DNA of 64,000 bases from Allacma fusca (lineage: Eukaryota; Arthropoda; Collembola; Symphypleona; Sminthuridae), in the NCBI GenBank assembly GCA_947179485.1, contig OX359248.1, positions 53,330,386-53,394,385 on the forward strand, written 5' to 3'. Below the pieces are notes generated by a model, which made no database searches, was not told where the DNA came from, and worked only from the letters and a program-made list of their open reading frames with translations. Numbering within the stretch: the stretch's first letter is position 1; every line of letters starts with the position of its first letter. Below, one piece after another: positions 1 to 49,571 of the stretch. Position numbers and translations under genes: made by a program.

Positions 1-1088
1 GAATTGTTGTTGTTATTTTGGATTTTATAACAAGTAGTCGCATTATGCCCCTTTTTGGAACAAAATTGACATACTTCTGTGAAATTGCGGACTTGAGAAT
101 CATCTTTCTTGTCATTATTATTTTTCTCAGATTTGATTTCTTCCTTAGGAAGGGTGGCTACTGTAAGAGTAGTGACTGGAGTTGGTGTTGTATTTTTCAG
201 AGTTAATTCTGTTTCTCCATCCACAATAATTTGTAATCGAGCCGAAAAGACAGATAAATTTTCTCTGTCTGGTTCGAAAATAAATCTCTCAAATTCATAT
301 GGAATCTTGCGTAGCATTTGACTTATTTTCTTTCTTTCTGTGAATGTACCATCAACTTGAGAAAGTAGATCGCATGAGTCAATGATGAACGTAGTAATTG
401 GCTTTTTAGGATCAAAAATGTATTTGTCCCATGCTTTCTGTGCTACTTCTGATCTTTTGTCATTTTTGAAATGTTTGATGAAATGTTCACAGAATCGGGT
501 GAGTACTTCATAAGGACCTAACTCTGCTCTCCATGATTGAAATGTACTATCTATGCTTTCGTACCAAGCTACGACTAATTTTGATTTCGAATTTTTGAAA
601 AAATGATGTAAAATAGGTACTAAAAATTCTGGATCAATATCTAAATTTTGACTTTCCTCAAGGAAATTAGTATGCCAGAGTTGTGCATCTATTTTGATGT
701 CATAAGGTAATATACGTTCTTTCAATACCTTAAATAATTTCTGATTCCTCTGAATCCTGGTTAAAGTGTCATCCGTAGACGAACCTCTGTCTTGATTTTG
801 AGATTGAAAGAAATTTCTGCCAGACCTGAATTTAGATCCCCAATTGAAAGAAGTATCTCCCATACGATGGACAAAAGGAACCTTCTGTTTAGGTGGTTCG
901 GTTGTCTTGGGAGCCTCAGGAACCTTTCCGGTCTTCTTCTGCAAAACATCCTTCTTGGCCTGTATTCGGTCCATGTCGCTTTTTAAAGAAATTAATTCCA
1001 AGTCATACTGCAACATTTCGTCAATGTCATCTTTGTCATCAGTCTTGTTGGTCTCTCCAAGATTCTCAACTTCACCGTTGTTAGACAT
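1..1088 (-). CDS. gag-like protein of the LTR element (partial)
   Basis: An open minus-strand frame starts at ATG 1088 and is still open at the window edge (about 362 codons visible). The N-terminus is acidic and Lys-rich (MSNNGEVENLGETNK). A capsid-like middle holds hydrophobic and Trp-containing helices (e.g. LVVAWYESIDSTFQSWRAEL). Near residues 340-353 there is a zinc knuckle C-X2-C-X4-H-X4-C (CQFCSKKGHNATTC), typical of nucleocapsid. Gag packages the element RNA into particles. The assignment rests on the knuckle plus the LTR/PBS context; family-level placement is uncertain. Confidence 0.75.
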   Translation of the reverse strand, partial: MSNNGEVENLGETNKTDDKDDIDEMLQYDLELISLKSDMDRIQAKKDVLQKKTGKVPEAPKTTEPPKQKVPFVHRMGDTSFNWGSKFRSGRNFFQSQNQDRGSSTDDTLTRIQRNQKLFKVLKERILPYDIKIDAQLWHTNFLEESQNLDIDPEFLVPILHHFFKNSKSKLVVAWYESIDSTFQSWRAELGPYEVLTRFCEHFIKHFKNDKRSEVAQKAWDKYIFDPKKPITTFIIDSCDLLSQVDGTFTERKKISQMLRKIPYEFERFIFEPDRENLSVFSARLQIIVDGETELTLKNTTPTPVTTLTVATLPKEEIKSEKNNNDKKDDSQVRNFTEVCQFCSKKGHNATTCYKIQNNNNN

Positions 1089-1479
1089 CATAAATATTAT
1101 GTATAGTCAATAGTCTTAAATGAAATGTACTGTTCAGAGTTTCAAACTCAAATGGTGCACTGAAATTATCACCAAAGTTATTTTCCTATACTGTTCAATG
1201 TAAAAATTTCCTCTCTCACTCCTCAGGTGCACTTTCTATAGTTTAACACAGCACGGAGAGAAATTGAGAAAAAGTAGGCGTTGCCTATAGGCGTGTCTTA
1301 ACACTGATTGGCTGTTCATATGTCCAGATGTTAAGCACTGAAAAATATTTTTAACGTGGTTGATACGGCACTGCGGCGTGTTCAAAATGGCTACCACGGA
1401 GTTGGATTAGTTTTTAACACACTATTTTTCAAAATTTTACTGTTTTTCGGAGATCACTTCACAAAAACACCCGGGAATC

Positions 1480-3760: not shown

Positions 3761-4067
3761 TATGAGTCAATTGAAGTTAAAATACTCCAGCTGGGAAATT
3801 ATCGATAGGAACAGTGTCAGTTTGACTGTCATCCGAGCTAAGTGACTACTGTAGACTTGAGAACGTGTGAGGAACATCAAGTGTTGAAGACGACAGTTGA
3901 GAATAGGCTTGATGCCTCTGGATTGTGCCTCATTCAAATCAGTGGATGAATGGACACATGGACGAGGGTGTTGCCAGCCTGACATCCGTGGGTCATTATC
4001 ACTACACTCCTGATTTCCCCCTTATTTCTTTTGTCAACAGATTGTCACTGCATTCCACATTGCCAGC

Positions 4068-4107
4068 ATGGTCTGGTTCAGCGCGAGGAAAAATGATGAT
4101 ATCAAAG
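4068..4107 (+). CDS. ATP8B: Flippase alternative first coding exon (short form)
   Basis: ATG at 4068 (context gccagcATGG: A at -3, G at +4) opens [13 protein letters not shown] and ends in phase 1 at a GTAAGA donor (4108). Exon 2 (22633) starts in the matching phase, giving [18 protein letters not shown]. This reads like the short charged N-termini of ATP8B proteins just before the conserved R-x-N-D segment. A pyrimidine-rich acceptor ends at 4040, so the 5' leader is probably spliced. The exon is only 40 coding bases, so support comes from the phase match, donor, start context and the normal total length it produces. Transcript evidence is not available here. Confidence 0.7.
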
Positions 4108-7100
4108 GTAAGAATACACACGGTCTCTTTTCTCTATCTATTTTTTTTTCTCAAAACACATCAATCAGGTCTACATCAAGCCAAATAACACGTTGTTTTG
4201 TGCTGAGAGTTGAGACACATATAAATATTACGTAAGTACTAGAGCTCCCGCGTATGTACCTACAATCATTGGGTTATCACATTTATACATTGTCAGCTAA
4301 GAAGAAATTCGGACGTTTGCCAATTATCTATTTGGAAAGCCAGGATCATCAGGTCACGGAAATTTTTAACGTTAAAAAATTTGGGTCTACTTGGGATACA
4401 ATTTCCTTTGAAAGAATTGTGCTCCTTATTAGCACATAATTTTTACATATTACAAATTTTACAGATACTTTCGTTTTTTCTTAAATCAGGTGCATTTGCC
4501 CATTACAAATATTGCAGGGACTTTAGTGTTAATTTTTGATTCTTACAAAAATGACTGGATATTAAGTTGACGTGTTTAAGATTTTACACGAATAAATAAT
4601 AATTTTTCTTTCTTAGAAGTACGGCTTTTGTAGATCTATGCCTCTTCGCTGTAAGAAATTGTTCCATGTGCTCCTTATTGGTTCTTAGCGGATGATCGGT
4701 GATTGGAAAACATATATCAGACAATTTCTCTGTATTTTATGCTGACGCTTGGACTTCAAAGCAAATCCAGGATTTTTCTCTGCTTTCGGTGCCAGAATAA
4801 AATATTGACAATTTTGTATAAGGGCAAGTTCAGCCTGGTACACTATGCAAAAGTAATTTATGTAGATTACCTGTATTAGCACCCCATGTAGATACATACT
4901 TGTTTAGTGCTTCTTGACGTATGTATCTATGTATCTACGATAAATTGATCTTGCTTCTCGTTCAAAGGCTTGTTGCTATTTATACAACTTTCCCAGGCCT
5001 TGGTAGTTCCCTTGCATATTGTGATGGGAACATTATGTTCTAGTACTTTCCAGAACCTACTCAATATCCGTTAGAAAATGTGTATAATTATTTGGGGTTT
5101 TACAACACATAATTTGACGTGAGAACATTGAACAGAGTAAATTTAATTTTCTGGGTAAATCGTCGAATTTCATGTGTAAGTTCGTCTGCTGAATGGTTGT
5201 AGGGCAGGGAGATTTTTGAAATAATGTTGCTATACAAATGTGCAATTACATATAGGCATGTTGACTTATGTACATATCTATACGTACCAGATACATAACA
5301 AGTAGATACACAAATATATGAGCTCCCATTATATAACTGCAGTAGTATCTTACGCCTTGAAAATTAACTTCAATGTTATCAAAATAATTTATGACTGTAA
5401 ACAAATATAGTGAGTAAAATCAGATAAAAGGAGTGGATTAGACCAAAGGTGTAGACGCTTAAAATTCGTTTACGAAACTTTCCGCAAATAGTTTCCACAT
5501 GTTTCAACATACTTGTGAATTTATGTTCTATATGTAACTACTTACCAGACATATAAAAAAAAATCATTTAAAGCCAAATATCGTGTGCTAATTTTGGAGG
5601 AGTCTTGTCGCCACATTTATTCCCTGTAGAATGTAGAATAGCTAGATTAGCTTGAAACATGGATTGAAAAAATCCCCCAACTTGGTAAGAAATTTTCTTC
5701 AACAGCAACTCCTAAAATTTGATTTGCATCTATAGCTGTAGGTCAGGATTTTGTGCTGTTGCTGTGCTGAGAATTACAATTATGTGGGAAAAAGTCAGTC
5801 AGTGGCCAGAAGTAATAAATTCATTCATTCACAACTTTCTGGGGAAAATCCAGACTTTATCCCATTCGTGAATGAATGAATGAAAGAGACGAAAGGGTTC
5901 GGCTAAAACTAAACGTTCCTGGGATTTTTCCCTGTTGTTTCTGAAATATATCCAGTAGTAGGGTGGATGTTGTATGTAATTGCCGTGTAATTAGTGTCAG
6001 CGTAAATGTAATTTGTCATTATTAAGCCTGATTATCAAGTTAAAACACATTTTTACAATTTACATTCCAAATGTTTGTCGAGGGTTTCTCAAAGTTGCCC
6101 GAACTGTTCCGTGTAATTAAATACTAACAAAAATGTTCTTTTTTTCACCCTTATGTACAAATGTGAGACTATACTTTGGCGGCAGGACATTCATAAGAAA
6201 TGAGAGCGAACCATATGTCAGCCCCTATCCACATTGTACTAGTTCTTGTTTGATTTATTACTTTTTTAAGTACATGCGTTTGGTGAGTCATGACATTACC
6301 GCATGTGTTCTGTGCATATCGGTCATGTTCCAAAATCCACCTTTCTTAACCAATGTCCTCAATTGGCGATATGCAAATTTTACTTCAAAACTTCCCTTCT
6401 GACAGTGTCTACGACTGTACGAATATAGTGCTCTGCTCTTTTAGCGTTTTCCCTCCTGCATTACTAACTACTGTTTATTTGCCCATAGGAATTTCCTGCC
6501 TTATATGGAGTATGAATAATTATCCAAAATTATAAATTATTATGAATGTTTTCCCCAGAAAAGTTAAGTGCGGCCTAATTCTCCATGTTGGTTTAGGGTA
6601 ATTAGGCTCATTTTTTTTAAATAGTAATTTAGAGTCTACCACTATTCTGCATTTTTTGCCACAAGATTTTTATTTTCTATGTAATCATTTTGGTCACGTC
6701 CACTGGAGAAGGGATGCTGACATCTGGCAATTTATTTTAAAGTATACTCTCTCTACAATAGCACTCCTCAAACTAAGTGAGGCTTTGCTTCTATAGTAGT
6801 ATGATCTTATAATTGTTACCCTTGCAATATTTGTCAATGCGTTCAATCCCATGGTACAACCAGTACGCGTGCTATAGATGAATGTAATTACAATATTAGC
6901 TGTAATACAAATTTCAAAATAAAACGGGAATACCCTTTAGTTGAGATCTCTAATTATGTATGTATGTAGTGTAGTGTAATCATTTGTTCATCCGTCAAAC
7001 GAGTCCTGTCTCTGTAGGGTCGGAAATGTCTGGGAAGACCCCGTCTTACGTCTAGGTACCAGCATTTCTAAAAAGACTGCACCGCCAACTAGCAGCTACT

Positions 7101-10100
7101 TCCGGAACTAGAATTCTACCCGGTAACGGTTCCTCAAAGCTCGGGCACGTAATATTCCCGAATCTCACTAGAGGCTCCATGAAGTCATGTTTTCAATTCG
7201 TCTAGAAGAGTAAAATGTCAGAAGTGCGAATACAATTTATTTACCTTCGTGTACATGTTGTTCTGTACAGTGGGCTGTCAGTATAAGAGCAGTCCTGGCA
7301 AGAGCCTTTTATTTACAGCGACAATAATTTGTAAAGTCGGGGTCAATTATTGAAATGTTATTTTCTATAGGAATTGCAATGTATGATGTTATTTGAGTCA
7401 AGTGTGCTGCTCTTGGCAGGGACTCTCGTCGAGAGAGAATGCACTGTATATACAGTTACTATATCCAACAATCTGGAACAAGTTCTCACTGGGGAATCCG
7501 GTACTTTATTATTTGACTTGCACAAGGTTGTCATAAAGGAGGCACTGCTCCTGCTAGTTATTAGTCCGTACCATATTTGATGTATGGAGGCCTGGAAGGA
7601 ACCTCTACCTCTAGCACTTCATGTGCTACACTTAACAAAAACATACATCGAAAATGTAGGGCTGTGGTGCAGAGTGCAGAGAACATGTAAAATAGCTCCT
7701 GGATGGTCATACCGAGGGAAATTGCCTTGTCCAAACACGGTAATTTCACCAAGCTTTCTCCTCATAAAGTTTATAGACTGAGGTAGTTTTAGGTGAATGA
7801 TCTTATTTTTCTGGTCGACAAATATGTCTGGAACTCTCAAGTCAAAATTGCCGGCTTTCTCCACCAAGTCGCAGACTCTTATGGAAGGGAGTTTATATAT
7901 TCTCGAGCAGTAGGTCTTACCAATTGAGTTTGATTGATGAATGTCTTTAATTTGAATTTTGTAAAGGCTGATTTTGTCAGTAATTCGTACTTTATATAAT
8001 TTGTACGTGCCAGGCTGTTAGTTTTATTATGACTGGATGCAAATTTCTGAGATATGTTGGTGCTTTTAACGCCATTACTTTTAATTAGATAGTGTATTGT
8101 AGGAATACATAAATATATAATTGTACATACACATATCTATATGTAATTACATGACTCATGCACTTATAGGAACATGTTTTTATAAGGAGACAAGCCATCC
8201 TTCCCTCAAACGGGAATGTATCCAAATATTTTTTCCTTATTGAGAAATTGCTCCAACAAGGGCTTTATGGTAGGGAAAGTTAACTGTATTCTCTTACAAG
8301 GAGAGAAATTAAGATAGGGGTACTAGGGAAACGTGTCCAACTGTATTTATCATTCCGAGAAAGTGGCTCTATATAAGAAGTCCTTTATACAGATTAACTA
8401 GAATAATTTTAACATATTGCCGTGGTTGCTAGGAAATGAAAAGATGATGGATGGGGTATAGCTGGAGATCAGTACAGCTCTACTTGGATTTTATTTAACC
8501 GAATAAAAGAATGGCAAGATGGCGAGAGCGGTTGTCAGATGCACCAGACACTGACACGATCAAAACGAGGGGGAAATTTTCATTTTCTCTTGAACGGAGA
8601 TACCCGATCTGTACAGCCGTTGTAGCAATATGAGCTATGACGTACCAATAACAGAACATAATTTTAAATATCATGTAAGATTAAACGTGAGAGCTAAAAT
8701 GTATAACTTTAATTAAACATGATAAGAATGATGACGCTACATGATTTTTGCAGCTGCTGACTTTTGAAGGATTTCATGATCGTTCACTCATTGCAATAAT
8801 TGCTATTTGATTTACTTTCATTAGCCTATCCATTCGACTAGGGAGATATTTGATCGTGGTCAGCCCTTATTTCCCCGTTTTATCTTTGTACTAAAATTCA
8901 TGATGATAGAACCATCCGCGACCACAGCAACGTAATGTTAACAAAATTGTAGTTCCGTAGGAATGACGAATATATTTTCAACGTGATTGATACACCCCAT
9001 TTGATTGTAAAACTATGTTCCAAGAAACCTACCACAAGATACGACTCTTAATCTCATGTTTCTTCCATACATTGGGGACTGAATTCTAGTTCCAGAGAAT
9101 TGGCGGTTTCACGTATTGGCTCATGCTGTACACTGCTGTCGTTGATTTTGTCCACTTGTATTAGAAAAAAAAATCGTATATATTTATCATATCACCGCAG
9201 GGTAATATAAACACATGCAGTGCAATTTCTCAAAAAATCCTTAATAGACGGAGAGTAGCGTTATGTTTGTTCATGCTCCATCGGTTCTAGTGCACGTGTA
9301 CTTAATTCAGTTTTGAACAAAATTCTAAATTCCCACCCCTTTGCGAAAACCTGTACGGAAGATTTGGTCGTTCAAAGTCCCTATTACGAATGTCGGAGTG
9401 TCTGCTTGTCTGCCAGGACGATAGATGCCGAACTAAGGGCACCAGGCAACTCAAATTTTTTGTAGGGACAGTTTGCATAAAAAATAAGAAGCCTCTTATT
9501 TTTGATGAACATCGGGTCTTCTGACCGTTTGACCTCAGAAAATTAAATTAATTCACATATAAACATACGAATATATGTATACAAAAGTTGCGCCATCTAT
9601 AAAATTGCATTTGTTGCTTACATTAAATTCTCTCTCATATCAGCCGGTAGATGTCGCATAAACTGGCACATGCGTAATTTGAAAATGAGTGCTAACGCTT
9701 ACCAAAATTTGTGTACGCCTACACATTGCGTTTACACCCCGGAATTTTAATTAATCGTTAGACAATATAGTAGCCACGGTGGAAATGGATGTCTATGTTC
9801 GTATTAAGTATGAGTTCATCCCCAAACGTTTTAATGCGCACCGGTGTGCCTAATCGTTGTACTGACTAATAGTCAACGCTCACTGGTGTATTTATAAATA
9901 TTTTAGTTTATTTATAGGGTAACGTATAATTGCCTTCTTATGCTATTACATCCTATGGTGGCGCTTCCCCCCGTAGCCACTTAGCCACGTAGTAGTGCTG
10001 ATCACAGATAATTTTGAAGATGTGGATGTATGTGTGATTGCGCGTGCTTACTTTTTTTTTACCTTTTTTAATGTCCTGAACTCAAAAGGATGGCCCAATT

Positions 10101-13100
10101 TTCTCCAAATTCAACAGAATTCGAACTGTTTGGTATTATGTAAGAAGTTTAATTGTCCGGTGAGTCAACAGTGACCGTGACGAAAACAGGAAATCAAGCA
10201 TCGCTACGATAGTAATAGGCAATAGTGATACACGTCCTTTCATTTTGACCCCAAATAGGCATCTGAGTGTAAATTGTAATAATACAGTAGGTAGATGAAG
10301 TGAAAAGAAGTTCCCTATTGTGAGCATCTGGTTGTTTGCTATCTGTTTACCCGTCATCACAATATTCGAGCAAACCGTTGCAATTGCAATGACACCAGAC
10401 AGTTCAAATTGTTAAAAAATATTGGCACGTTACCTTTGCAGTCAGAAATCAATTGATTTTAGAAGAGATTAAGCTATTATCCGTTCGACCTCAGGAAATT
10501 AAAAGAGGGCACCATTGTATAAACTCATTTTAATGTACATACTTATATGACTTGGACAAAAGGCGCAGCCTCCAGATACCCCATGGTGTACAAATGTATG
10601 TACACTGTTACAAAATCAACCTCTAGATGTCATGTAAACCTGATCTGATCTGCAATAGGAGCACGTACCATTCTAAGTGGGGAAATGAAGCGCACGGAAT
10701 TTCAAATTATTAGAGATTTGACATAATGATCAGCTCGCTATCATAAAAGTGTCATTGCTTATAGGATGCACTGTGGTGGTGGTGCATGGAGCCAGTAAAT
10801 TGAATTTCAATTTAAAATTGCACAAAGTCCCATGCTCTTCTAAGTTCTACGTTCAATCAGTATATGGCTCAATACTTCTCAGAATTGAATTAAACGTTCT
10901 TTGATGCATTATTTTTACTCTGCCCTCCATGCTCATAGTAGGGATAGTACAGTATTCTACTTTGCCCATTTGTAACCTATTGTTAGTTTTTATCATCGAG
11001 GATTCCGTCCACGGAAGGATTTATAGCGGCGTATTTCCTTTGCAAATGTTTCCTTCTACTCTTCCAAATAGCAGACTAACCGAATTTTAATAAGGAACTG
11101 ATTCAGACGGGCGTTCCGACTGATAAAATGCTCCTCATCTTATGTGTCTCATTCGTTTTCTGAACTATGAGCAGGAGCAACTTCCTCTGAGCGTAGAGTC
11201 TATTAGAGTCTATTTAAGGGAGACATGCTGTTGGAAGCACATATGTACTTATGTATATAATTATGTATAATACGGTCTCTCTGTATTCCCGTAAGTATAA
11301 CCCCGGATGATTGACTATAGTTTGCACATGTAATTTATGGGTATCTACATTTACAAAGAAATTGCACACATTCTTAATACAGGGCGTTCCTTCTATTAGG
11401 GACTCCATCACACGAGCATGTCCTTTACATGTCCATATACATATTTGGACGAATTTCCTTTATTTACAACCTTAACATTGTTATCCCTATAAGAGCATAT
11501 ACAACTGTAGAAGCCCCACTTTCCTCCAGCCAGAAGTGTTCCCCTACTGGGAGGAAACTGTATATGACTTGACGCTTCTGTAGCAGTTTGATAAAATACA
11601 CAGGACCAAATAGGATTTTCATTGGTATTAGTTCTCATCTAATTTCCTTGGGAAAACCTATCTTCTAAAGTGAACATGTGCACAGCGTAGACACCATAAG
11701 GTAACTAAGTTTCAACTCTGCACTTTAGTCTCGCTATGAGAGGCCCCCTTAGAAATCCATTGTCTCTGTCAGGGTTTGAACTGAATCATCTTTTTAAGAA
11801 TTTTTGGAACCATGCCTCACCAACATTGTTGTCTTTATAAAGGACATTTCAATTTTTAATGCATCAATTATGGGGCTCTCAGAGGTTCTTATCCTCAAAG
11901 GCTCTACTGTATGTGTCTTTAATTTATTTATTCACGGCATGCTTTTTTCCGGCTTTTGTGCACGGACAGTGCTGTCAAACTTTGTTCATATTACATTGTC
12001 TGATGCGTGGGTTTAAATGCATTCATACAGTAGGGACTTCATTGAGCGGACCTTTTAATTCGCTAAAATCCTGCTACTACGAACGGGCTCCGTTTTAAAA
12101 GGGACATTCCCACGGGAACGGAAGTGAGTCACTGCATGAACAAATTCCCAAAACCGTTGGAACAAGATTGCCCTTTTAGAGGGCGTCACCCTAAAGTGAA
12201 ACCTCTGTACAGTGGGGATAGTGAATTGGGCCTGTATTTTTTTTTATCCCTGAACGCATTCACCTGTATAATAGTAAATACACGAAGGTACATATACAAG
12301 CACCTATCTATAATTACTTAGACATGTTCAGCCGGCCCATTCGTTCCCCATATCCAGCAAAGCATGAATGAGAGAAAGAGGTATTTGCCCCTTAAAATGA
12401 AAGAAGTTGTGGGTTGTTTGTGCATTTATAGTTACATTTTCCGAGCTACTTTCTCCATGAGGCTCAAACGACAATAAATGTCAGGTCTCACTGGAATTTT
12501 TCCCATAAAAAGTTTACCTGGCAGTTACGGCCTGCCCTACACACAGGATACACGATACGACGATGCCGTAAAAATGTACTTCAGTATTTGGGAGCGCCAA
12601 GGCTCCTAGAAGCTCACCAGAAGTTGTTAATACTCCGGGCTTTCAGCATAGCTTAAGGGGGGCGATCAAACAATAGCACATGTATATTTAAATAATCCAA
12701 GTATAATATTATACACATGTGTGGAGTACATATTCTGTGCTCTGACTTTTCGTTCATATCCATTACTTTCCCTGGTCAAGTCCAACCGGGAGTTCCAGCT
12801 CGGTTGGAGTGTAAGTAATTATATAACAGTATTTCAAAAACTGATTTCTCTCTATCTTCTCCTTGGGCAATTATGTTGTCATCGTGCATTAAAAATGTAC
12901 AGTACAATAATTACTCTATAGTCTAGCACCCATAAAAGACACAACATTTGATCCTTATAATTATTTGGTCGATGAGTGGAAAGTCCACAATTATTCATAT
13001 ATTTTTTCCGGAAAAATGTTATTATAAGAAATGCTTGTATAAGGAAGAGGAATATTAACATACTGGGCTACTTGGGAAATGGGAAAATATGTTTACTCCT

Positions 13101-16100
13101 ATGGAGACAGTGCTCCTATGGAAGGGGTCTCCTGTAACTATGTATAGTATGTAGTGGAGCAGTGTAGTACACAATTATGTCTGTAATTTATATGAAGCTT
13201 TCCCCCCGGAAGTGAGTCGTGAAAGCATGAAGGGTATTATTGCACTGTATCGGCCCAAAAGGAAATTAAGGGTGTAAGGATAATCCAAGTAGTATTAAGG
13301 ACTTATGTATGTTAAGCATTATAAGTGACCTTGGTTTTTGACTTGATGGTGCCATTTGGAGCGTTGGGGGGATTACTTCCTTATATAAATGATTGCCTCA
13401 GGGAACCTTTGTAGCCTTCGGATTATGCCTAAGCCCTCCATGCAGTTTGACAAAGAGGTGTTGACTTTTCTGATTCCCATGATTTCCCTCCATCTGCCCA
13501 ATAAGTGTCGGGTATAAAATCTAACGCATCCCCTATATCGACAGTTGTGGATTTTCTATCCCCTCGTTACCGCTTCTACTGTCGGGGTTGCTCCGAATAA
13601 ATTTTAATGTGACTGTCATTTTGCTTAAAAATAAAAGAGCAAATGTTTTTTTTTCTCTCTGAATGGATCCTCCTGTTTTTTTGTTGTTGTTGTTTAGGGA
13701 ACGTTCCCACTAGGGATTACGCTTTCCAACGACGGGGCCACACTTAATCATTTGGTACTACAGTATTTGCATGAAAACTCCATTTGATACAGTTGGAAAT
13801 TTAGAGGGTAAGAATGGACCTTGCTCCATGGATTTGGGAAAATAAATCATATGTAAAGATATTCCTGTGTAGTATAATGCTAATGATGATCCTACTGGGA
13901 AGACTAGTCTTTCGTCAGGGATCAAAGTCCTCATTGAAGGTCTCTAAGATTTCACACCTCATTTTTCATCCGGGATGTTCCAACTCGGGTGCATTGTTTC
14001 CTTCATCCTCTTTTATCTTCTACATTTTTCTCCTCTGTCGTCAGTTTGCACAAGGGCTCTTTTCACAATCTATTACTTATCTTCCAGTGTCCGTTGTGGT
14101 TCTAGTGTTCAGGAAGGGAGAAAGGAGCTCAAGCAGAAATTTAATGCAATTTGGAAGAAATATGGTGTGAACTAGGGATGTAAAAGACCCCCGCTCACTA
14201 TACGCGTGGTTTTTACAGTGGTAATACTGTGATTGAGGAATTTTCCCCAATTTTTCAATGCAGTTGTATGAGTTACATTTCACTCCTTTTAAGGGTGTTC
14301 CTGTAAAGAGAGCGGACGTTATAGACTACAGCGGTTTTTCGCTCTGAGTCAACCATTAGTTGTTATTTGTTATATTCGGGGAGGAAGTACGTATGCACAT
14401 GCATGTACATAGGTCTATATATAATTATTACATTGTAGACAAACGCATGTGTCCAAGCTGGTTGAAAGATGAAAGCGTGATGGAAACCATAATAAAAGTC
14501 AGGGAAAGGATTCCCATTTGTTCTAGGGGCTTATACATTTAACTCCACTCCTACACCCGTGTAGAGTGGTGTTGATGCTCATGGATATGTTTGTTTACAT
14601 ATCTGGCCATAAACAATGTAATGTTCCGTATGAAATTGCATGTGCATTGCACTCACTCTCACTCATAGTTCAGTTGTTGGACCAAAGATTGTGACTTTGA
14701 TTTGTTTTGGTTTCTGGGGACTCACTACACACACACACACACACACTCCTACATGTTAACAATTATTTGTGGGAGCATTTATGTATAATGGTCTCATGCA
14801 TAAATGTAACTGCTCAACGGACTCTTCCTATAAGAGACCTAATGGTCGGAATAATTATGTTCTCTATAGGAAGACAACTAACTGTATTTGCTTACATTCC
14901 CCGTTTACCACGATGCTAATTTTTCTCCTCATAATAGTGAATACACATTTAAGAGTCAGATTTTGGTCTTTGTACGTTGGCTCTTATATAGAAGTAATTA
15001 TGTATATCTATGGAGAAAGTACTGTATGGATATTAGCAGGGTCCTTGAGGAGGTACTCGGATGAGAACGGTTCTTTGAACTTCTCCTCTACTAGAACTGC
15101 TTCTAGCACTCCTCAACTGAACTCAGGATCCTGGATTGGGTAGGGGGTAAACTACTGGACAACGTTCTGGGGATTACTGGATATGCACAGAGGGCTTGCT
15201 CTTTCCTATATGCCAGGGCTGTTGTAGAATATTCAAATTTTAATAAGGGAACTAACAATAAGTAAAGGGGAATAATACACTCTATGCGGAAATTTAATTG
15301 CTTGAGCGGAGTTCTACTTTTGGAAATTGCATCCTGCGAAATTACATATTGTATCAAGGGAAGGGACGAGAGGGGTACGGAGCATTTTCCAAATGAACTA
15401 CACATTCGCCTATGCTGAGTTATACTTATATTAGGTCAGATTGCAAAACTGGATAAAAAAAACCGAGGGTATGCGGCTTTGGGGTGGATCTCCTACTACT
15501 ACACGGAGTGTGTTCCTCTCTCTCTCTCTCTCTGTTTTGTAGTAGTAAGTATATTGTAAATGGGAATGAAAAGTGGGATGTGGATGTAAGGGCTGGATTC
15601 ATATATAAATATATTTATATGTGATACAAGATTAGATTTTAGTATATGGTGTGTGAGGTCTTTGCGCTGGGCTGCTCCGCTCAGTTCTCTTATCGATTAA
15701 GAGACCCAACGAGTGTGTCTGCTCTTCGTGACGTAACCCACACAACACTTGGTTTTCGTGGAGTACTCCACCCGTATTTTCTCCGGAGCTGCTCCTTCAT
15801 ATATATGTAGATACATATACGTAGATACACATATGTGTATAAGTACCATAAATTACGTGCATGTACAGATATATTGTGAGTAGATTTTTTTTCTAAGTAT
15901 TTATGAATATTCTGCAGTCTCGTTATACATGGGTCTCCTTATAGTAGTATTTACTCCAAAGTAGTAATGACGGTTTCATACAGTGACAGCCATTAAATGA
16001 CAATTTTAATGTTTCTCCCTATAAGAGGAACCCCCTTTTCTTGGAACCGGAGTTTGCTCCTTGTAGGGGTCCTCCTGTGTAAAGACAGTTCACTGTATGT

Positions 16101-19100
16101 CACTTTTGGCTTTCAAATATCTACTCCACGATCTGCGTGTGTGGACATACAATAAGCATAACAAGCCGTGTGGTAGTTTGTAGTACATCTGTGAGAATGT
16201 GCTGCTGCAGTGTAGCAAGAGGGAGAACTTGTGTGTTTATTAGACTCAGTCCGTATGCAAAATGTATTTGTTAAAAATGTACCTATTTCCTGTGTATATT
16301 GTGGGATATAGGGGAGGTTAGCTATGGGTGAAGGTACTTTGTATCAGTAGATACAGATAGATATGTGTGTGTGTGAGTATCGAGGGATGGCATGTATGCG
16401 CTTATATAGATAGTTATGATATATAAGGAAAGCATGTGGAGTAAAGGAAAGGAGGATGGGTTCCTTTCCCGGATTTTGAGTCTGTCGGGTTTCCATCTAG
16501 CTAGATTGGGGAAGACGGCTCGTTTTTAGTACAGTTGTACCGAGAGTTCCGAGAGGAAACTTTCGCCTTCGTCTCTCTCCCCTTCATCACGTGGTCATCG
16601 GAGAAATGCTAAACCAGTCCCGTTTAACTTCCTCCAGTGGAAGCTCTGTAGGAAATTCCCTCTCATAACTGAAATCATTCTTTCATTCAAAAACTAGGAG
16701 TCCTGTTCCTTCAGAAAATTCCCCATTATTTGTTTACATCCGGTCCCTACACAATTTTAAACCTCTTGTATTAAACATATAGATACATACATACATACAT
16801 ACATACACGTACTTCACTGAGTTCCCAGACTTTCGCCGCAGCTGGGAACTAGTAAATTCATATGTGACTTAATAAATGTGAAATTATTCAAAAAGTGTGT
16901 TCATCTCAACGAGAAACTGCAGGCTTGGAAGAACCATCCTTGTGTCGTGTTTTTTCTACAGTAATTCACTAGTCATACATAAATTGTATTACTTTCCGTG
17001 TTATGACATTCTGTGTTAGACTCAGTTAGAGGTTTCCTCTGTTGTCAACAATACCTTCGAGATCATGGGTGAAAATCTCATGGGAAATATTTATCGCCCT
17101 GTATTCCTACCAATGCTGGTCTTGAACAATGGATCCCTAAACAATGAGACTATATTGACGCGATATTAGCATTAAACTCAGCAAATGTGGATTGTATTCC
17201 GGTGTATCCTATCGAACGGAAATGCATTAGATGCGCATTTCTCTCTCAGTAATATTATTGTACTGTGTATTGAACAAACTTGAGAATTGTTATGAGAGCA
17301 CAAAGGGACAAATGTTTACAAAATATTGGTCATCGTGTGACATTGTGATCTTGGGAGGAATAATTCCGTGACAATAATAAAAACATTTGATTTACTCCTG
17401 TGGACATGAAACCGGATCAAAACAATGAGCTAATTTAATGCCTAATATCTTTAAAGGAAGCTTGTTATCCTGTGAAAGAACAACTTTCCCTTTGAATTGA
17501 TACCGGCTGATATTATTTGGACACTGTTGTTTCTGAACGCATTTGTAATCCTTTGTTAAGCATATGTATTCCCTGGAACGGTAATATTTAATTACTTACT
17601 ACAGACTTAAGTTGTTCCCATTGAAAATTACTGCTGAAGCCAAGGATGGTATCTACAAACTTCTGTTTTTTTGTGGAAGTGTTCCATTTGGAGACGTGAC
17701 TACTGTTGGAAAGGTCATCCACTGAGAAGTCACGTCTGGAAAGGGTGTTCTGATATGCTACCTGAGAAGTCCGTGAGTACTTGTAGATCACTGGACCAGC
17801 AGTCGTCTCCACTCAATTATTATTTCAACTCCTCAGTTGACACATATAATTATTATCCCTTTACAAAAACCCGCAACCACATCAGGATGATTTTGTATGA
17901 TTTCCGAAGAGCCTTTGTAAATGGTATTTGGAATGTATTGGTAGGGAGTCAGTGTGGGATTGGGAAACAGCTTGAGGAGTCTCCCACTATTTAGCATTTG
18001 TGTGTGTGCTTGTCTCCGTGTGGATGACACTTTATGGGGAAAGTAACAATAAAATAAATTGGATTTGAATCCAACACTTGCATCTGACATTACTCCAAGG
18101 GACATGATACTGTCTTTGTACATGAGAAATGAAATTATAAACTTGAAATAAATTGGGTGCCATGAGCAGTAGGAGTGGGAAAATAAATCTCATAGGATAT
18201 AGTTTTACGAGAAGAAAATACAATTATTGTGAAATTCCTTCAATCCTTGTGGATTGACTTCACACATCAAATTTCCTTCCTTTGATGTTCTATTTTCTGT
18301 GTTCTACTGTAGTGTGTGTGTGTGTGTTTATGAGGACGTGGGTTTCAAGTCAATTTTCTAGTCTTGAGGTGATAGATATACTCTACATACACGTGGACTT
18401 GTGTGTGTGTGTATGTGGATCTGTAGATATGTATGTCACAGTGTAGACTGCTCTGGTAATAACAATGTTGTATCTATTGGAAGCAAGACGAGCCTACACC
18501 TACACATATGTTTATTTGACACAATTGTGTGAAGTATAGCCAAGCCCAGACCCGTAGTTGTTGAGCAGTGCGGTGTGGTGATGGTAATTTGCTAGGGACA
18601 AAGAGATCAGACTGCGAATGAATTGTGGGACGTGATGTCTTCATCAGATGATGTGGTAGAAGTTTTTCAAATCAAATCAGCCAGTCGACGGAAATCATCC
18701 TCACATTTACTGACCTCCAAAGAGTCCGCCTCTGCCTCATCATCCGGAGTGAAAACTCGTTTGCTCATTCGGAAGGGCAAGAATAGTAATGGTGGTGGGG
18801 GAGGGAGGACGAAAAGTTTCCTTCAGTCACCTCGAAGTAGTCTCAAGAAGCGCAAGCCTAATTATTCCCCCCACCTCACTGATGATGATGAGGAGCTGGA
18901 TGATCAGGGAGTAGATAACGGAGCCATGAGACCCTCGTCTGCTGGAGTTCCTCCAATAACCACAAACTTGTTCAAGTCCAGGACAGATCTGTCCGAACAT
19001 CCCTCATCGACTTGGAGACAAGTTCCAAAAGTTTCTGTAACAACAACAAGTTGCACCAGTAGCAGCAGTGCGGATATCCTCAAAATCCGTGCAAAAGTAA

Positions 19101-22100
19101 CAACCCTGGAGGAGATCCTGAGGTCACAGTCCATGCCAATGCCGGAAATACAGAGGGGGAGCAAGGAGACACGGACTGAGAGAGGTGTTGATGGAACTCA
19201 TCCCATTACCATAACAACATCCCGAGCAGATGTTCCTGCTGGCGGTGTTGGAAGGAGTCGGAGTGCAACTGTCCTCACGTCATCCATAAATAAATCCCCG
19301 ATGAGTATGCAGATGATGGGCGGGGGTTCCAAGCCCAGGTCTTCCTCAGCTGTGCTGTCGTCTCTCAAGTACTCAAGTAATCTGCCGGATCCATATCCTT
19401 CCTCCTCCAAATCCTACCGACTTCACCATCCCCTCTCATTCAGCAATGATCCCTCATGTAGTGGGATGAGTAGTAGTGGGACGGGGAAATGGACTACCAA
19501 GTCCATGGGAAGGAATGAGCCCATAACGGAGGAGACTATGTCGGACACCGGGGATGGGAGCGGGAGTGAGCCTCCCACGAGTGGGGAGGGGAGGGAGGAG
19601 ACTTCAGGAGGTCACTGCTGTGACTTGACCTGCTGGTGCTGTGGCTGTCAGGGCTCCTCCAGCTGCTCCCGGAGGAGACCCCCTCCTCGCACATTTCGCT
19701 GGAGGGACTGCTGGGCCCGCTTTTTGAATAGAATGCCTTCCTGTGTCCATAGCATTCTGGGCTTTATTACTAAAATTTACTGGAGACTCGTTGATGGAGT
19801 CTTCGGCATCGAACCACCCTATAGGGATCACAATGGAGAAGGTAATATGGTAGAGACTAGATACCTGTCACATATGTTTAGCCCTAGCTATTATCCCTAT
19901 ATTTACAACATGTACAGAGCCTACACTGTTCCTTCTATAATAATTAAGTGTACGGTACATTTCAATGCTTGTAAATATCCAATTATGTGTATAAGCTCTC
20001 CATTCAAAAATATATTTATCTACAGTGTAGAAATAATTATTACATAAACAAGACCCATACTTTAAAGCTTCGGGGTGAAGACAGGACAGTCAATGCACTG
20101 TTAATGGTATGAAGGTCCGATTACATGCAGTTGTATTAATCACAATAAGCTAAAAGTCTCGGCATAGCATCTCATCCACGAGTTGCTATAGTGATGAATG
20201 GGGACGATAAATAAATGAAAGCCCAGACAAAGTCGCCATGACTACAAAAAGATACTCTGATTATATTTCGCATGAGTAGGCGTATTGTCATAATGAAATC
20301 CGGCACATGGCTTTTATTACCTCAGTGTCATATCTCCGATGCCTTTCGGCCAGTTATTTTCATCCAAGCAGATTCACTCAAGTATACATGGAAATTTCAA
20401 TCATAAATTTATTATCTCAATAATGCTTATAGTCTGGAAAAATATGAATACACTGGGTATATAATTACACAGTAAATACATACATAGTGCAGAGGATATT
20501 GTCTGTTATAATTAAATGTAGGTACTTATATGTACATACGTACCAAAAATATGTGTATGTAGGACCCACAAAATAATACATCGAAGGTTGTTCAGACTTG
20601 AGTCGGGTTCTTATCGTCTTGGGTAATACGATCACTGTTGCTTCTAATGTAATAAAACTACGGAAATAGTTGTATATTTTTGTCTGGATTTTGTTAACAT
20701 GTCTCTTTTTTCCTTCCCTGAAAATCTTCCAAGCCTTGGGCTCTTATTGGATTTTTTAAAGCTGTGGCGTCGTGTCAGTAAAGTTCTCCCCATCAGCCGT
20801 AAAAATACTTTGACTGGGTTCATTCGATTAGATTTTTGCAATATGAGTAGATACAGTAGATATATTTATATGTACTAAATATATGGGCTTCAAGGGTTCT
20901 TCCTACTCCGTCATGTACCCTAAATACCAGTCACCTTTCAACTCTAAATTGCTGGCATGCACTCCAGCACTCATCGGGCGGCATAGGGATTGGAATTACT
21001 GAGGCGAGAGAAATGTAAGCATTTGCATTATCCCCCAAATGCTTCTGCATAAGATACTTGTGTAGAAAACGATTTCAGTCAGTCTGGCTCCTATGTAGAT
21101 ACGTCTCACCATCCCTAGTTTTGACGGTGCTCTGAAAATGAGCATCACATTATAATGTTGGTGTGTGTGTGGGACAAGTGTTTCAAATGGAGAAAGTTTT
21201 CCAAAGATGTTCTCATCTAGGTTCATCCCAGTACTGTAGAAAAGTTTGACATATCTGTCAAGTCTAGCGGATGAATTATTTCAAAACATTTCCAGACGCC
21301 CCATTATTAAAGATAAACCATCCGTACATTACAGCGGAGTCGGATGGGGGGACAATTTCCTCCGAATTCCTACGTATTGTCAATCTACCCAACAGAAAGC
21401 TTATTATTCTTTTGTGGATGGACGAGAACCTAAAGAGACTTTGGCAATTTAAAAAATTCATACCCTGGTCACGTTTGAAGTCATAAATAGAGGGAACTTT
21501 GACACACTTTCTTGTTTACTGTTGTATATTTGAGGTAATTACCTTTCATAAAAAGACGGTTCCCTCTGTATGATTGCATAAACTTCATTAGCAAAATTAT
21601 TTCAAATGTTTATTTTAGTCGTATGGACTGTAGTCGTAATTTATGTCTGCATGTATACATACATACGTACATATGCATGTGCATGCCCTGTCGTGCTGTA
21701 TTGCCTTACTAGGAGAGACACCCTGATAATAGGACTTTCTCTATAGAGGAGCAACAATATTTGGACGCTTTTACTGTATACCTTTTCCTCCATGTTATTT
21801 TTCCTCATTTGAAAAGCCTACCATTCCAAGAGTAAATTTGTGCTGCTTTTAAGGGTGCCCTTATAGACAGAGTGCTTTGTAGGGCTTCCGACTCTACCGA
21901 ACATTCCTTAATTTAATATCTCAAGCGAGAAAGCATACGTAGATACACATGTAGATATGTATGTATGTGTAATGTGTACTAATGATTTTAGACTTGTAGA
22001 GGGTCCGGAACTTGGTGCTAAAAACTGTTATGTCATCATAAAATAAACTTGTCTTCTGACATAATTAACTAACAAGCTCCATTTTAGGGATGTAATTTTC

Positions 22101-25100
22101 TAAAATGACACATTTAAGAGTATTTTACTGACTAAGCCCTTATTCACATGGAAATGCTTCGTAGATATAGTATGACTTACCATAAAAAAATCTGCTTCCG
22201 CCAGAAAGTTTCCCGAACAAATCTGTGTTTGATGTGTGTCAGAAAAGTAGGTCATATTAACCCATGCATGTCTGTATGGCCCTGTGAATTGTCACCGTAC
22301 ATTGTGGGCTGGAGATTATTTGACAGCGGGAATGTGTAACGTTTCCCAATAATATGTAAATTCCCAAAGACGACTAAACTTATGTGAGTGGTTCCGAGGA
22401 GGAAGGGATTCAAGCAGGAAAGATATAGACGTGTGTCCATACGGTATTTTTGGGAGCAGTACTCACTTCTCACCTTTTGTCACTTCGTCAGTGTCTGTAA
22501 TTGCGTACGGGACGGGGTCATGAAATATGTATAATTACTTTGTCTGCACTTGTACGTATGTACATGTTAATTATAAGGCATCACGCTGTACCTCTGACAC
22601 TAATTTGTATTTATTTTATTGTATTTTTACAGAGACGGAGCGTCGGATACGACCCAATGATCCTGCATTTAATTCCAAATTCGCCTATGCGGTAAGTTCT
22701 GAGTTTACTTAAATCTCTATGAAAGAGGAAAAAAATCTGAAAAAAGTTTTGATGCTCCCCTTTTTATGCATTCAGACAGCATTTCGTGTATAACACAAAG
22801 GAGAAATTTTGTATGATTAAGTTTGGTCGACGGGCTTTGCTATTCTGATCAAAGTTAATGGCTTAAAGTGCGTTCGTTGAGTCGGTAAATTAAAAATCTA
22901 TTTTCCAATAACTGTTTCCCGCTCTTACAATTCTATAACCCCACAGACCCATTGACCTGGATAGGAAAATCACACGAGAAATGTAAATTAGTCTAAAATC
23001 TGGGAGCTCTTATACAGATATGTAGCTACCTATAGAAGATTTACGTTCTATCCTCCGTGAAGAGGCAAAATAGAATAGATGCACAGCCCTAAGATTACTT
23101 TGCTTGTAGTGAAAGCCGGTTAGAACTCATTTTGCTTTTACAAAGGCGTGCATCTAGATCACTTGGCCTCTACACTGATGATATAATACAAGAGTAAAAT
23201 CTCATAGGAAGGGGTTCGTCCGGGTTGGAAAATTTTTGTCCTTGTATAAACAGTACCTTAAAAACCGGTTTTTAGCATTTAGGAATATAATTTAATAAAT
23301 GGACGGCGGGACTGAATAAATGTGTGTTTTGTAACGAGAAATCCATTAGTCCGTCCGTTATAATAACAGGGTTTGACTCTATCTCATCTCCTCTGTCTTT
23401 TTGACGCTGAGACTTACAGTCGTGGATAGTTTTGAAGGTTATGAGCATTCGCTACCTGGATGATTGTACGGAGTATGCACAGTACTACATATATTGAGGG
23501 TGTGAGGAGGAAGAATCGATAAACTCTTGAGTCCATTAAGGATGAGCATGGGATGTTCTATACATAAGTATTCGTGATATGAGAGGGAAGGGATACATAT
23601 ACATAAGTATTCGTGATATGAGAGGGAAGGGATACATATACATAGATCGGGTGCTTAATTGATAATACTATTACCTAGAATTTAAGACATTTGCCGATAT
23701 TCCCTGGCACATGGGCAAGAAGTTCCTTGCTGTTGAAGATAGAACGTCCCATGGGAGGATAAATATATTTTGCTCACTGTATGTATCTGTGTATATATCT
23801 ATACAAGTATAATCTATAGATATATTCACAGGGAGAGGGAAAACTTCTAGAGATATCTATTTTGTGGTAGTTGCTGGGAAAAGTCAAATTTAATGTTGAA
23901 TTTAATGTAACTGACAATGAGTTGAACGTATGAGGATCATTCTGGAGCTTCCATTTAGAAACACTCTAAAAGAAATAGCATTTGGATCTGGTTTCCATTC
24001 CTACATTTTGTCACATAGTGTCATTGTACAGAACACTAACACTATGGGGCATCTGTGCTTAAGAGCATTCCTTCTATAGACAAAAATATATTTCTACACA
24101 TTCCACCATTTGACCACATCCTGAATTTGTCATCTTGTGGAGGAGCAAACTAAAAGGGCCTTTTGCTCGTTTGTGAGGCTGCTCTTATAGGGAGAATGTC
24201 CTTTACACTACGCAGTACGTATTTAGTGTGTGCCTGTGTTGTGAAGGGAAATACACTCTATGGATTAACTTGTTACCTTTTCTTGTGCAACCTGAGAAAT
24301 AGACTTGCTTCTATTTTGTGGATGAGGAAAAAGTTTCTCGTACGAGAGAGCACTTTGTAAGAGAGTGAAGGAGTGACTTGTGTAGGGAAGTTCTGTCTCC
24401 TCTTTTATAGTCTCACATATGTCTTTCCTCAAGGAAGCTACATATATGTATGTATAGTATCAGTAAATGTGGATCTTGATATTTAACTAGTGAAAGGATT
24501 CTTCTTATTGTACACAATTCTGCTGATTTTCCCGTGGAGTGTTGCCAAATGTGGAGGAGATAGAATTATTCTAGGAAAAATTATCCCCGTGACTGTATTT
24601 ACAGGATGACACTCAACTTTTCCCCGTCGTCTCCTCTTCCTCCTCCAGCTTGATAATTAGATCTGCATGAATGGAACAGGATCATTTCCTCTGTTTCATA
24701 GCTTTTCCCAGATTGTGTAAAAACGTACTTGATTTTTTTCACATGTACATTTACTCAAGTCTACTAGGTTTGCGGTCAGGTACATTTCTACTGGTCAGAA
24801 TTCAAAGAGAAAGTCTGCACGTTTTTTCAGTAAAAGGACTATTCCATCTCCTCAAAGAATATTCTAACCTTTTCTCATACTCTTTATTGTAGTTACAAGT
24901 GGTGACCTATACGTGACAATTAAAGGTCAGGAAATTATAAAGAAACTTTTATATAGGGGCAGACAATATTTTAATGCTACCATGTCTTTTCCTAGTAAAC
25001 TAAGAACTTTCACTTTTCCAGCTTCTCGCCAACTTTCACTAACCCGTATGTACATATGTCATAATCTTCCCAGGAACTTTACTCCACATTTTTGACTCTC

Positions 25101-43100: not shown

Positions 43101-46100
43101 ATCGGAGTGGGTATCAGCGGACAAGAAGGCCTTCAAGCTGTGCTAGCTGCCGATTATTCTATAGCCCAATTCCGCTACTTGGAGAGATTATTACTAGTAC
43201 ATGGGAGGTGGTCCTACTACAGAATGGCGAAATTCCTCCGCTATTTTTTCTACAAAAATTTTGCCTTTACACTTAGTCACTTTTGGTTTGCCTTCTTTTG
43301 TGGCTTTAGCGCTCAAGTAAGTTTTTTCCGCGTTTCGGGTGATACTCCATTCCATTGTCTTTGTAAGAGAATATCTCAAAGTTGACTCTTTTGAGGTCAT
43401 ATTCTTATAGGGTTAAGAGTTCAAAATGGGGCACATGGGGATGTATCTAAATATGTTTGACCTTACTGAGAACGCATACTCCTATACGCGACGTCAGAGT
43501 TTATTTTGAGAACTACATTTTGTTTACTCCTATTTTGAGAAAGAAGTTACAATTTATTATAAATAAGCAATTAATGAAACAATGACTCTTCTTTCTTTCA
43601 GACCGTTTTTGACCCTATGTTTATTTCCGTGTATAACTTATTTTATACGTCCCTGCCCGTTCTGTCGATTGGAGTGTTCGATCAAGACTGTAATGATGAG
43701 TACAGCTTACGGTATCCTAAATTGTATACGCCGGGTCATCGAAACCTCTTGTTCAATAAGAAGGAGTTTTTCAAATCTGCACTCCATGGATTCGTCACAT
43801 CATGTGTTCTTTTTATTGTACCATATGGTAAAGATCCGGTCACTTTTTAATCATTTAAAGTAGGAAATGTAATCATCTTCCACTCAAGAATGTTATGGAA
43901 TCAAGTACAAGCTGATATAAGTATACAGTACATACTCTGGATTTTTTCTCCCCATAAACAGGCACTTACAACCACGCGATAACCGCTGATGGTCAAGGAT
44001 TGTCAGATCATATGCTGTTTGGGAGCGTGGTCTCTACTATTCTAGTCGTTGTTGTTACAGCTCAGGTACACACATTTTCTAAATGGATTTCCCATATTTG
44101 TCCAGGTGCTATTTTTAGCTGCCAGACAGAGGCATAATGATCATGCTCACAGTCATGTTCTGTTATTTGATCCTGCAGGTTGCGTTGGATACCTCGTACT
44201 GGACAGTATTCAACCATGTGACCATTTGGGGCTCATTGCTATTTTTCTTCATACTTCACTATCTGTACAATTTTGCCATCCAAGGGAAGTACTTGGGCTC
44301 CTTGACGAAGGTACTTGAACATTTGAAGCATCTATTGATGTCGTAGATAAAGTTGAGGGGAAAGAACATGTTAATTGATTTTTCTCATACGGTCTCATAT
44401 ATATGAAGGAATAATTTTGATTTGAATTTCAGGCGCTGCAAGAGGCAAGCTTTTGGTTTACTTTGGTCCTGACGGTGATGATTTTAATAATTCCAGTACT
44501 AGCGTGGCGCTTTTATTTTCATGACGTTCATCCTACTTTGTCTGATCGTGTTCGGCTAAAACAAAGGGTTTCGTCTGCCAAGTAAGAACAGACATTGACA
44601 GGCATATAGTCTTGTTGGGCTGTTGACATAATCTTGTTATTTCTCAGTCTAATGTTTGGTAGCGACAATCAATTTTCCAAGTGTCTCTGTAGTATTAAGT
44701 ATTTATTAATGATATGGATTTGGCACAGAACAAGACATTCAGGAGACAAAGCTTTCCGTACGCCTTCGGCTAGAAGAAGCCGCCGATCACTCCGTTCGAG
44801 CTATGCATTCGCACACCAGGAAGGATTCGGTCCTCTTATTACCTCTGGCAAGATTATGCGAAAGGTACATGAATAGCATTTTATGGCTGAAGATTTGTGA
44901 ATTATTGCATGTCATTTTTCGTCGGTGAAGAGGTAAAATGGTTTCGATTTTGATTAGAAGCCAAAAGATGTACACGTAAAGCCTGTAACGTCACTAAATG
45001 CAAATTGGACGAAGAGCAGTTTATCCTAAAACAAAATCCATTAGATGCATCTTCGAATGGAATCCAAAAAAAATCTGCATGCTGTTTCATTATAAATGCA
45101 AAATGGTTCGAAATTAAAGCAAATGGGACCAAGTGCAATTTACTCCTTCAAACAATCTACGAGATGCATTTTCCATTTAAAGCAAAAAGATCTCCATACA
45201 GTTTCTAACATGCAAAATGGACCAAATGCATTCAAAATGTCAAGCAAAAAGGACCATGTAAAGTTTATTCTCAAAGCAAAATGTAATACTGGCATCATAT
45301 CTTTTAGTATAGCTCAAAATGCACGTACATGTACATAGTTGATTTTGCTGTTAGAGAAAACTACGTGTTGTTCATTTGCACGTAAGAAGACTTGCACTTG
45401 GTTCATTTTGCCATGACGCGATGTCAGATTTAGGCAACTCTTGCTATAAAGTATCTGTAAGAACCGTTGATTTTTCCCTTTAAAGGTTATTCGTTTTGCT
45501 TGGATGTACTAGCCCTAGTTAATGTTTATTCGAACCAGATGAGGAATATGCGTCCCTTATATTATTATTATATCCCCTACAATAATTACATTCAGTCAAC
45601 CATTATAATAAGAGTTGCCGGTGAATCATTTTAGTTTTAATTGAAAAGCCACATAGAACGTTTTGCCTGTAAAAAAATTCGAGTAGTTCATTTTGCCTCT
45701 TCACCGACTGCTCAACTTTCTCATCATATTAACTTTCTCGTATGCTTCTAATGTATACCTAACTTATTCTTTCCTTTTCATCTGATTTCGGTATGGGCTT
45801 GGGCTTGGCTGTCTCTCTCTCTCTCTCTCTCGCTACCTGTGTATCTAAATTTCTGTGTTCTTTCGCTATCTCGCTCTTTCCATCTTTCTATCTTCTGTCA
45901 CGTTCCCTGTTACTGTACTAACCAAAAAAAAAAGAATTCGTCAGTATAATCGAGATTTTGCACAGGCCAAGAGCAACAACAATCACACGGCTGGTTCCAC
46001 AGTTGCCAGCCTTGTTTCCAGTGTGACAAGTTTTGGAGCCACGACAAATCCGGCGATTCCGTCGAGCTTAAAAAACCCTCGAATCACAATGGTGACGCCT

Positions 46101-48225: not shown

Positions 48226-49571
48226 TATATCCCGTAATTACCAAAGCCTGTTTAAATTTTTAGTACAATTAGCCTGGTATCCAGTGATTTTTAGTACACT
48301 TAACTGGTTTTGAGTTTTTTGTAAATAAGTATATACTCAAGGTATTGCAAATTCTATAAATGGGCACAATAAATAGGTTAGAGCCTTCTTTGGTTATAAG
48401 GAAGTGTTTTTAATTTCTTCGTTTTGTAGTATATGGGCTAAAAGGGGCAAAGAGATTTCCAACACTGTTACAAACATTCAACGGATCCAAGTTCAAAATG
48501 TTATACGATATAAATTAGCACCATTTAGGATTTTAAATAAGTTGACCACGGTATGTTTATTTTTTGGATTATATTGAACATTGACCATTTTAGGAGTTAT
48601 CTGTAGTTTTTTGGTAGCTATATTTTGACGTTTTGCTATTTATGAAACAGGATTTACATCGATTATAACGAATTCTTTCGAATTCGATGTTATTGTGATT
48701 ATATGTAATTTTGGTTTGTTTCAAGATTAACTCCACTTGATGTAATACACGACGCATTTACAAAATAAATATTTATTTTAAAACTGGAGTAATTATAGGA
48801 CAATTATGATCAAGCTGGTGCGACTCCTTTTTATTATCTGGTGTCTCTTCATCCCTATTGTTAATGCCATCTCGTTTCGACACAGGAGAAAAACAAAGCT
48901 ATATTCCTACAGATTTTACGTTTACAATTAAAACTTCCTCACCTTCCCAGCAAATGAAGTTCTGGTTCCCTCGTCATAACGTCCAACAGTAATTGAAACA
49001 ACAAATTAAACATTGAACTGCATAACAGCAGGATGCCTGTGAACACAATTAATTATGAGATTCAGCTAATTGGCTTGACGCCGGTGATTCGTATAAGTAC
49101 GTACCATGCATGGAAAAATATTTGCTAACTTACTCAAGGTATTGCAAATTATTTCTCAAGATACATAGATACTGTTGATCATATATAATTACTAGTTATA
49201 GATCATATAATGAGTATATAATATTTTTTTGTCCAGGAGAATTCTAACCGGAAGAGTTTGGCATAAACTTACATAATATATAAACCATTGGGAAATAACT
49301 GATATTAGAAACATAACAAATTATAGATGTCCTGCATTATAGGTATGTATGTTTGCACTTGAATCATTAGAAATTTTAGCTAAAAGATCCAGAGTAGCAT
49401 AAGCAGATTGAATTCTTACGTTATACTTCACATTGCTGTCCTCAGTAGACTGTGAATATATTCTCTGACCTGTTATTCTCAATGATACGGTCCAAGTCGT
49501 CGGAGGTGCAGGGAAATCGGAAAGAAATTTGTCAAATATCAGCGTGGTTTTCGCTCAGTTTTTAAAACAAA
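48226..49571. other. Intergenic upstream of the elongase
   Basis: AT-rich, no gene recognised. The string tactcaaggtattgcaaatt occurs at about 48334 and again at 49131, a short dispersed duplication. The elongase promoter is presumably within the last few hundred bases; no clear TATA box was chosen. Confidence 0.4.

Follow-up and report, generated by a model that had tools for sequence, protein, structure and literature searches.

A putative ATP8B-class flippase gene with two coding start exons in the springtail Allacma fusca

The 64,000-nucleotide stretch of DNA analysed here (hereafter the window; contig OX359248.1, positions 53,330,386 to 53,394,385, called C12 where genome coordinates are given) comes from the springtail Allacma fusca and carries, on its forward strand, a putative lipid flippase (P4-ATPase) gene in which either of two coding start exons, 1a with 13 codons or 1b with 402, can be joined in frame to a common body. 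An initial annotation had described these two starts and had proposed related crustaceans for comparison; the genome is instead that of a hexapod, and the gene lies on chromosome 4 (PMC10427803). Papers are cited by identifier, and all statements drawn from the literature refer to excerpts of the published texts, further background having come from PMC3518472, PMC4937031, PMC13212812 and PMC4664967. In window positions, the features of the gene are as follows.

3801..4040, + strand: candidate promoter or 5' leader of the short form, suggested by a rise in G+C and a candidate donor of a non-coding exon at 3866 (CGT/gtgagg)
4041..4107, + strand: exon 1a, with acceptor, 27-nt leader, ATG 4068, 13 codons and phase-1 donor
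18635..19841, + strand: exon 1b, 402 codons with phase-1 donor; serine-rich; it contains an acidic patch and a cysteine cluster, and helices are predicted at its end
19616..19669, + strand: cysteine cluster of exon 1b (residues 328-345), read from the sequence and putatively acylated
19700..19804, + strand: predicted membrane-proximal helices of exon 1b (residues 356-366 and 368-390), from AlphaFold2 and the hydrophobic moment
22633..22691, + strand: exon 2, the first common coding exon, from the gene model and splice scores
26034..44581, + strand: common exons 3-24, encoding the P4-ATPase core and including 37969-38127 (53 codons)
44729..44864, + strand: common exon with the C-terminal segment, putative counterpart of the ATP8B1 AYAFS autoinhibitory motif
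45966..46139, + strand: last coding exon, with the stop at 46137-46139

The two-start anatomy is confirmed in the sequence, together with its phase and frame. Exon 1a runs from ATG 4068 to a donor at 4107 (AAAG/gtaaga) and comprises 13 codons plus one base, exon 1b runs from ATG 18635 to a donor at 19841 (GAAG/gtaata) and comprises 402 codons plus one base, and the first two bases of exon 2, behind the acceptor tttttacag/AG at 22632/22633, complete the split codon left by either. The gene model was built by anchoring the translated stretches and shifting each border to its GT/AG pair; in it, both start joins read without a stop across 25 shared exons to the TGA at 46137-46139, so that the phase-1 ends and in-frame joins described in the initial annotation are borne out. 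The same holds for the stated difference of 389 residues, the long form having 1668 residues and the short form 1279. A short form of 1233 residues, as first given, was not reproduced, because the rebuilt protein has 1279 residues, or 1226 when the doubtful 53-codon exon 37969-38127 is skipped with the frame kept. This exon has weak-looking splice sites (acceptor cacggaag, donor TCC/gtaaac) and is possibly a second alternative exon. A single protein containing both start exons, with exon 1a spliced into exon 1b, was considered and rejected: upstream of ATG 18635 the open frame contains a single AG in phase 1, which would give an exon start at 18606 and scores -6.7.

The open frame of exon 1b is far beyond chance. 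It extends over 483 codons, continuing to 20047; in 40 simulations of 22.6-kb sequence with intron-like composition (about 36% G+C, with exon 1b itself at 51%), the longest forward frames averaged 115 codons, with a maximum of 145. From 51% within the exon, G+C drops to 30% after donor 19841, and the codon score in 30-codon blocks from 19856 falls to -12.7 and -12.8. Splice sites were scored with a model built from 22 introns of the same flippase gene, and ranks refer to the 1496 GT and 1226 AG sites of window positions 1-22600. On this scale donor 19841 scores 5.2 (rank 92); three other phase-1 donors share its frame, at 19376 (5.0), 19565 (5.9) and 19949 (6.4), and since two of them score higher, 19841 is not the sole possible donor, though it is the best choice on composition.

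For exon 1a, the splice sites carry most of the information. Donor 4107 ranks fifth among the GT sites and acceptor 22633, to which both start exons would be joined, third among the AG sites; the description of both start donors as good was thus apt for 4107, whereas 19841 is usable but moderate. Furthermore, exon 1a has its own acceptor at 4041, 27 nt before ATG 4068 (score 6.1-6.5, rank 37), so that transcription of the short form may start further upstream, in an exon that is non-coding. As a first exon, 4068-4107 therefore stands as a coding start; the exon itself probably begins at 4041 and may not be the first of its transcript. Because exon 1a is so short, its evidence from the sequence alone is weaker than that for exon 1b. 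Within 52.6 kb there are 148 candidates that run from an ATG to a phase-1 donor scoring at least 5, ten of them with a donor of at least 8.5, and three of these ten also have an acceptor of at least 6 within 80 nt. When candidates also had to carry a purine at -3 and to have an acceptor no more than 60 nt away, only 4068 remained in 22.6 kb and none in a control of about 122 kb, the tighter filter having been chosen after 4068 was known and the control having left out one locus, L006, which holds a transposon. Two other stretches of this kind, 12717-12810 and 15284-15374, combine strong donors with upstream acceptors; they are probably due to chance, with further starts of the flippase gene as a possible reading.

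Judged from its matches, the encoded protein is an ATP8B-class P4-ATPase, that is, a lipid flippase. Over the core, the best matches among 20 listed PDB sequences are ATP8B1 chains ('Phospholipid-transporting ATPase IC', 1144-1176 bits), followed by 6k7g, which we take to be human ATP8A1, at 884 bits, with the others below 830; the class assignment refers to match scores to these 20 sequences. TIGR01652 (phospholipid-translocating P-type ATPase) matches residues 1-647 of the short form with 608.9 bits, the cut-off being 431.25, and the translation contains both DKTGT, the phosphorylation motif of P4-ATPases, and a PISL motif (VVPISLYV). The C-terminal segment SYAFAH, encoded in exon 44729-44864 and common to both forms, keeps the YAF core of the ATP8B autoinhibitory motif but not its first and last positions. 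No second ATP8B-like gene copy showed in the genome with a 98-residue probe from one exon, which matched four places, the window with 204 bits and the next with 62.

The extension encoded by exon 1b is rich in serine (73 of 402 residues) and found no match in Pfam or in the PDB. A genome search for a second copy of the exon returned a single match, namely itself, and a tblastn search of plasmids with the long exon gave none, a result that is uninformative for an animal gene. Seven of its 11 cysteines fall in residues 328-344. An AlphaFold2 model of the last 102 residues (301-402), made without an alignment, reaches block values of 71-82 in the predicted local distance difference test (pLDDT) over residues 351-390. 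The helices predicted in this tail are amphipathic by hydrophobic moment, and the stretch, whose best 19-residue Kyte-Doolittle mean is 1.24, is too polar to qualify as a clear transmembrane helix. We infer that the extension may act as a membrane-anchoring regulatory tail. An acidic patch encoded by exon 1b is reminiscent of DDETEDELDDQG in the tail of human ATP8B1, the hexamer ELDDQG being common to both, a sharing that arises by chance in 0.06-0.2% of shuffles and was noticed after the fact. A PDB search with the acidic patch alone found nothing.

The strongest support for two coding starts, one giving a plain and the other an N-terminally extended flippase, comes from Drosophila dATP8B (CG14741), stated to be the sole fly representative of ATP8B and to have seven predicted isoforms (PMC3961175). 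A single nonsense mutation in the first common coding exon of that gene is numbered R18-X for five of the predicted isoforms and R197-X for the other two (PMC3961175), and with this pair of short and long proteins the claim of the initial annotation is well supported. Exon 2 supplies the springtail short form with residues 14 onward (ETERRIR...), among them arginines 17 and 18; as these sit in exon 2 and the fly arginine is R18, the 13-codon exon has the length implied by the fly short isoforms, with the reservation that the springtail residue may not be the fly's R18 arginine. Having been annotated before in the fly homologue, the arrangement appears to be genuine and of long standing, not a novelty, and its presence in both springtail and fly argues that the pattern is kept for a reason and is not annotation noise. 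The springtail adds a further case, with an extension that lacks a match in Pfam and the PDB. Besides the isoform list in the excerpt of PMC3961175, no publication dealing with alternative coding starts in an arthropod ATP8B was found among the matches listed, in a search of titles and abstract beginnings that most subscription papers lie outside. CG42321, considered at first as the fly counterpart, was set aside, the excerpt of PMC6326971 treating it as another fly gene.

The neighbours of the flippase gene are an ELO-family fatty-acid elongase exon at 49566-49907 (+ strand) and a DUF229 protein at 51684-52940 (- strand). At the other side, an element resembling a long-terminal-repeat (LTR) retrotransposon, on the - strand and with long uninterrupted frames, occupies window positions 1-1106 and about 6.8 kb upstream (C12 ~53,323,600-53,331,500); since it ends about 3 kb before exon 1a, it bounds the promoter region of the short form. 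Elsewhere in the genome, COX1 gave 13 matches, pieces included, with pieces on contig C8. Four near-full-length matches lie outside the mitochondrial contig C91 (C12:58139742, C12:57617062, C5:4638854 and C8:22971501); TGA codons are their only in-frame stops, two of the four read through with the mitochondrial code, and they are apparently recent nuclear mitochondrial insertions.

We consider it reasonably probable that a single ATP8B-class gene makes two proteins differing only in their N-terminal tail, chosen by two promoters, and that the long tail regulates location and autoinhibition. The part from exon 2 onward would be common, preceded by 13 residues from exon 1a or 402 from exon 1b, and the choice would lie between two promoters, one near 3.8 kb and the other a short way upstream of 18.6 kb. 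The long tail may be largely disordered and phosphorylatable, and attached to the cytosolic face of the membrane beside transmembrane helix 1 by its cysteine cluster and by the helices that adjoin exon 2; there it could alter the location of the flippase and the strength with which the pump is kept inactive by the common C-terminal tail of YAF type. The plain, more easily activated enzyme would be the short form. Given the precedents of the ATP8B1 and ATP9 N-terminal tails, and since SYAFAH is kept in both forms, a membrane-attached regulatory tail beside this helix is most likely what the long form adds. By analogy, altered location or autoinhibition, as first proposed for the extension, is plausible.

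Several observations weigh against this account. Over its 402 codons, exon 1b has a neutral in-frame codon score of -0.6 bits (the other frames score -151 and -197), and the model of its tail is weak overall, being alignment-free with a fragment mean pLDDT of 63.7 and a predicted template modelling score (pTM) of 0.36. The acidic patch and the ATP8B1 tail give a local alignment score of 39, which is reached in 4-11% of shuffles; for this reason, and because it was noticed after the fact, the likeness is only suggestive and is kept as a lead. At its first and last positions, SYAFAH departs from the strict motif (G/A)(Y/F)AFS (PMC9045818), and the long and short isoforms of the fly are called predicted in PMC3961175. 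Finally, the two promoters are only candidates, and CpG is not enriched in either putative start region, the observed/expected ratios being 0.50 (for the short form) and 0.55 vs 0.72 for the window.

One promoter and alternative second exons would fit equally well, because acceptor 4041 precedes ATG 4068 and candidate acceptors also precede exon 1b, at 18313 (8.1), 18427 (6.1) and 18596 (4.2). A non-coding first exon near 3.8 kb, for which donor 3866 scores 6.4, or one further upstream would then be spliced either to 4041 or to an acceptor before 18635, yielding the same proteins under the control of splicing, much as human ATP8B1 splices untranslated 5' exons into twelve variants. Near the short form, G+C reaches 45.6% in 3801-4107; among the 307-nt windows of positions 1-22300, the long exon excluded, 0.4% attain this value, at three places that include 3801-4107 itself. 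Against a single promoter, the raised G+C in the 200 nt preceding 18635 (44.5%) would also suit a local leader. We regard one promoter as possible, if on the unlikely side. Spliced-leader trans-splicing, which would place a leader at acceptor 4041 and dispense with a local promoter, is known in copepods and came into view through the crustacean label; with a springtail genome, in which the cores of two published copepod leaders (those two only) have no match at up to 2 mismatches, it is extremely improbable.

Doubt may also fall on the start exons themselves. Only the long form, alone or with another, unseen start, might be real, and 4068-4107 would then be a chance pairing of an ATG with a donor, an idea that draws on its mere 13 codons and on the nearby acceptors of three in ten strong-donor candidates. 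We hold it to be improbable, given that 4068 alone survived the tighter rules and that nothing did in the control, the limits having been set afterwards, and given that the length of exon 1a agrees with the fly short isoforms. Similarly doubtful is the proposal that the 402-codon frame is a separate nested gene or splices from 19565 or 19949: the frame stays open to 20047 and both donors outscore 19841, but composition and codon score collapse just past 19841, its phase 1 fits exon 2 exactly, and splicing from 19565 would lose the cysteine cluster and the helices.

If two promoters or one splicing choice do yield ATP8B with and without a long N-terminal tail from one arthropod gene, comparing these natural forms would directly test the role of that tail. 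Vertebrate ATP8B paralogues have differing tails, and a bolder proposal, which we think rather unlikely, is that the choice between short and long ATP8B is a switch inherited from ancient hexapods, or from still earlier, with a freely evolving extension, that the springtail long form, with an acylated, helix-backed anchor and an ATP8B1-like acidic clamp, is the tethered and strongly autoinhibited state, and that the vertebrate paralogues divided the two ancestral states between them. How human ATP8B1 is regulated by its tails is under active study (PMC9045818, PMC10657443), and odorant-receptor function in the fly depends on ATP8B (PMC3961175).

Among known systems, human ATP8B1 is the best match over the core (1176 bits) and has regulatory N- and C-terminal tails, as is proposed for the springtail protein. 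Its N-terminal tail interacts with three domains (A, N and P) and increases the autoinhibition exerted by the C-terminal tail about 270-fold, as measured by the half-maximal inhibitory concentration (IC50) of a peptide (PMC9045818), and is visible only with the C-terminal tail bound. It is also much shorter, the YANN segment beginning at residue 92, and has no cysteine cluster in residues 1-131. The human gene likewise has multiple 5' exons, of which four are untranslated and lie as far as 71 kb upstream, together with twelve 5' splice variants and three putative promoters examined, but its variable 5' exons, unlike those of the springtail, are untranslated. In ATP9A and ATP9B, it is the N-terminal region on the cytoplasmic side that determines location, as is proposed for the springtail; these are, however, two genes and not two starts of one, and belong to a different P4 class. 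Fly dATP8B differs in the size of its extension, its long form exceeding the short by 179 residues where the springtail form does so by 389, and is like the springtail gene in placing short and long N-termini on one body, the mutated arginine following 17 residues in five isoforms and 196 in two.

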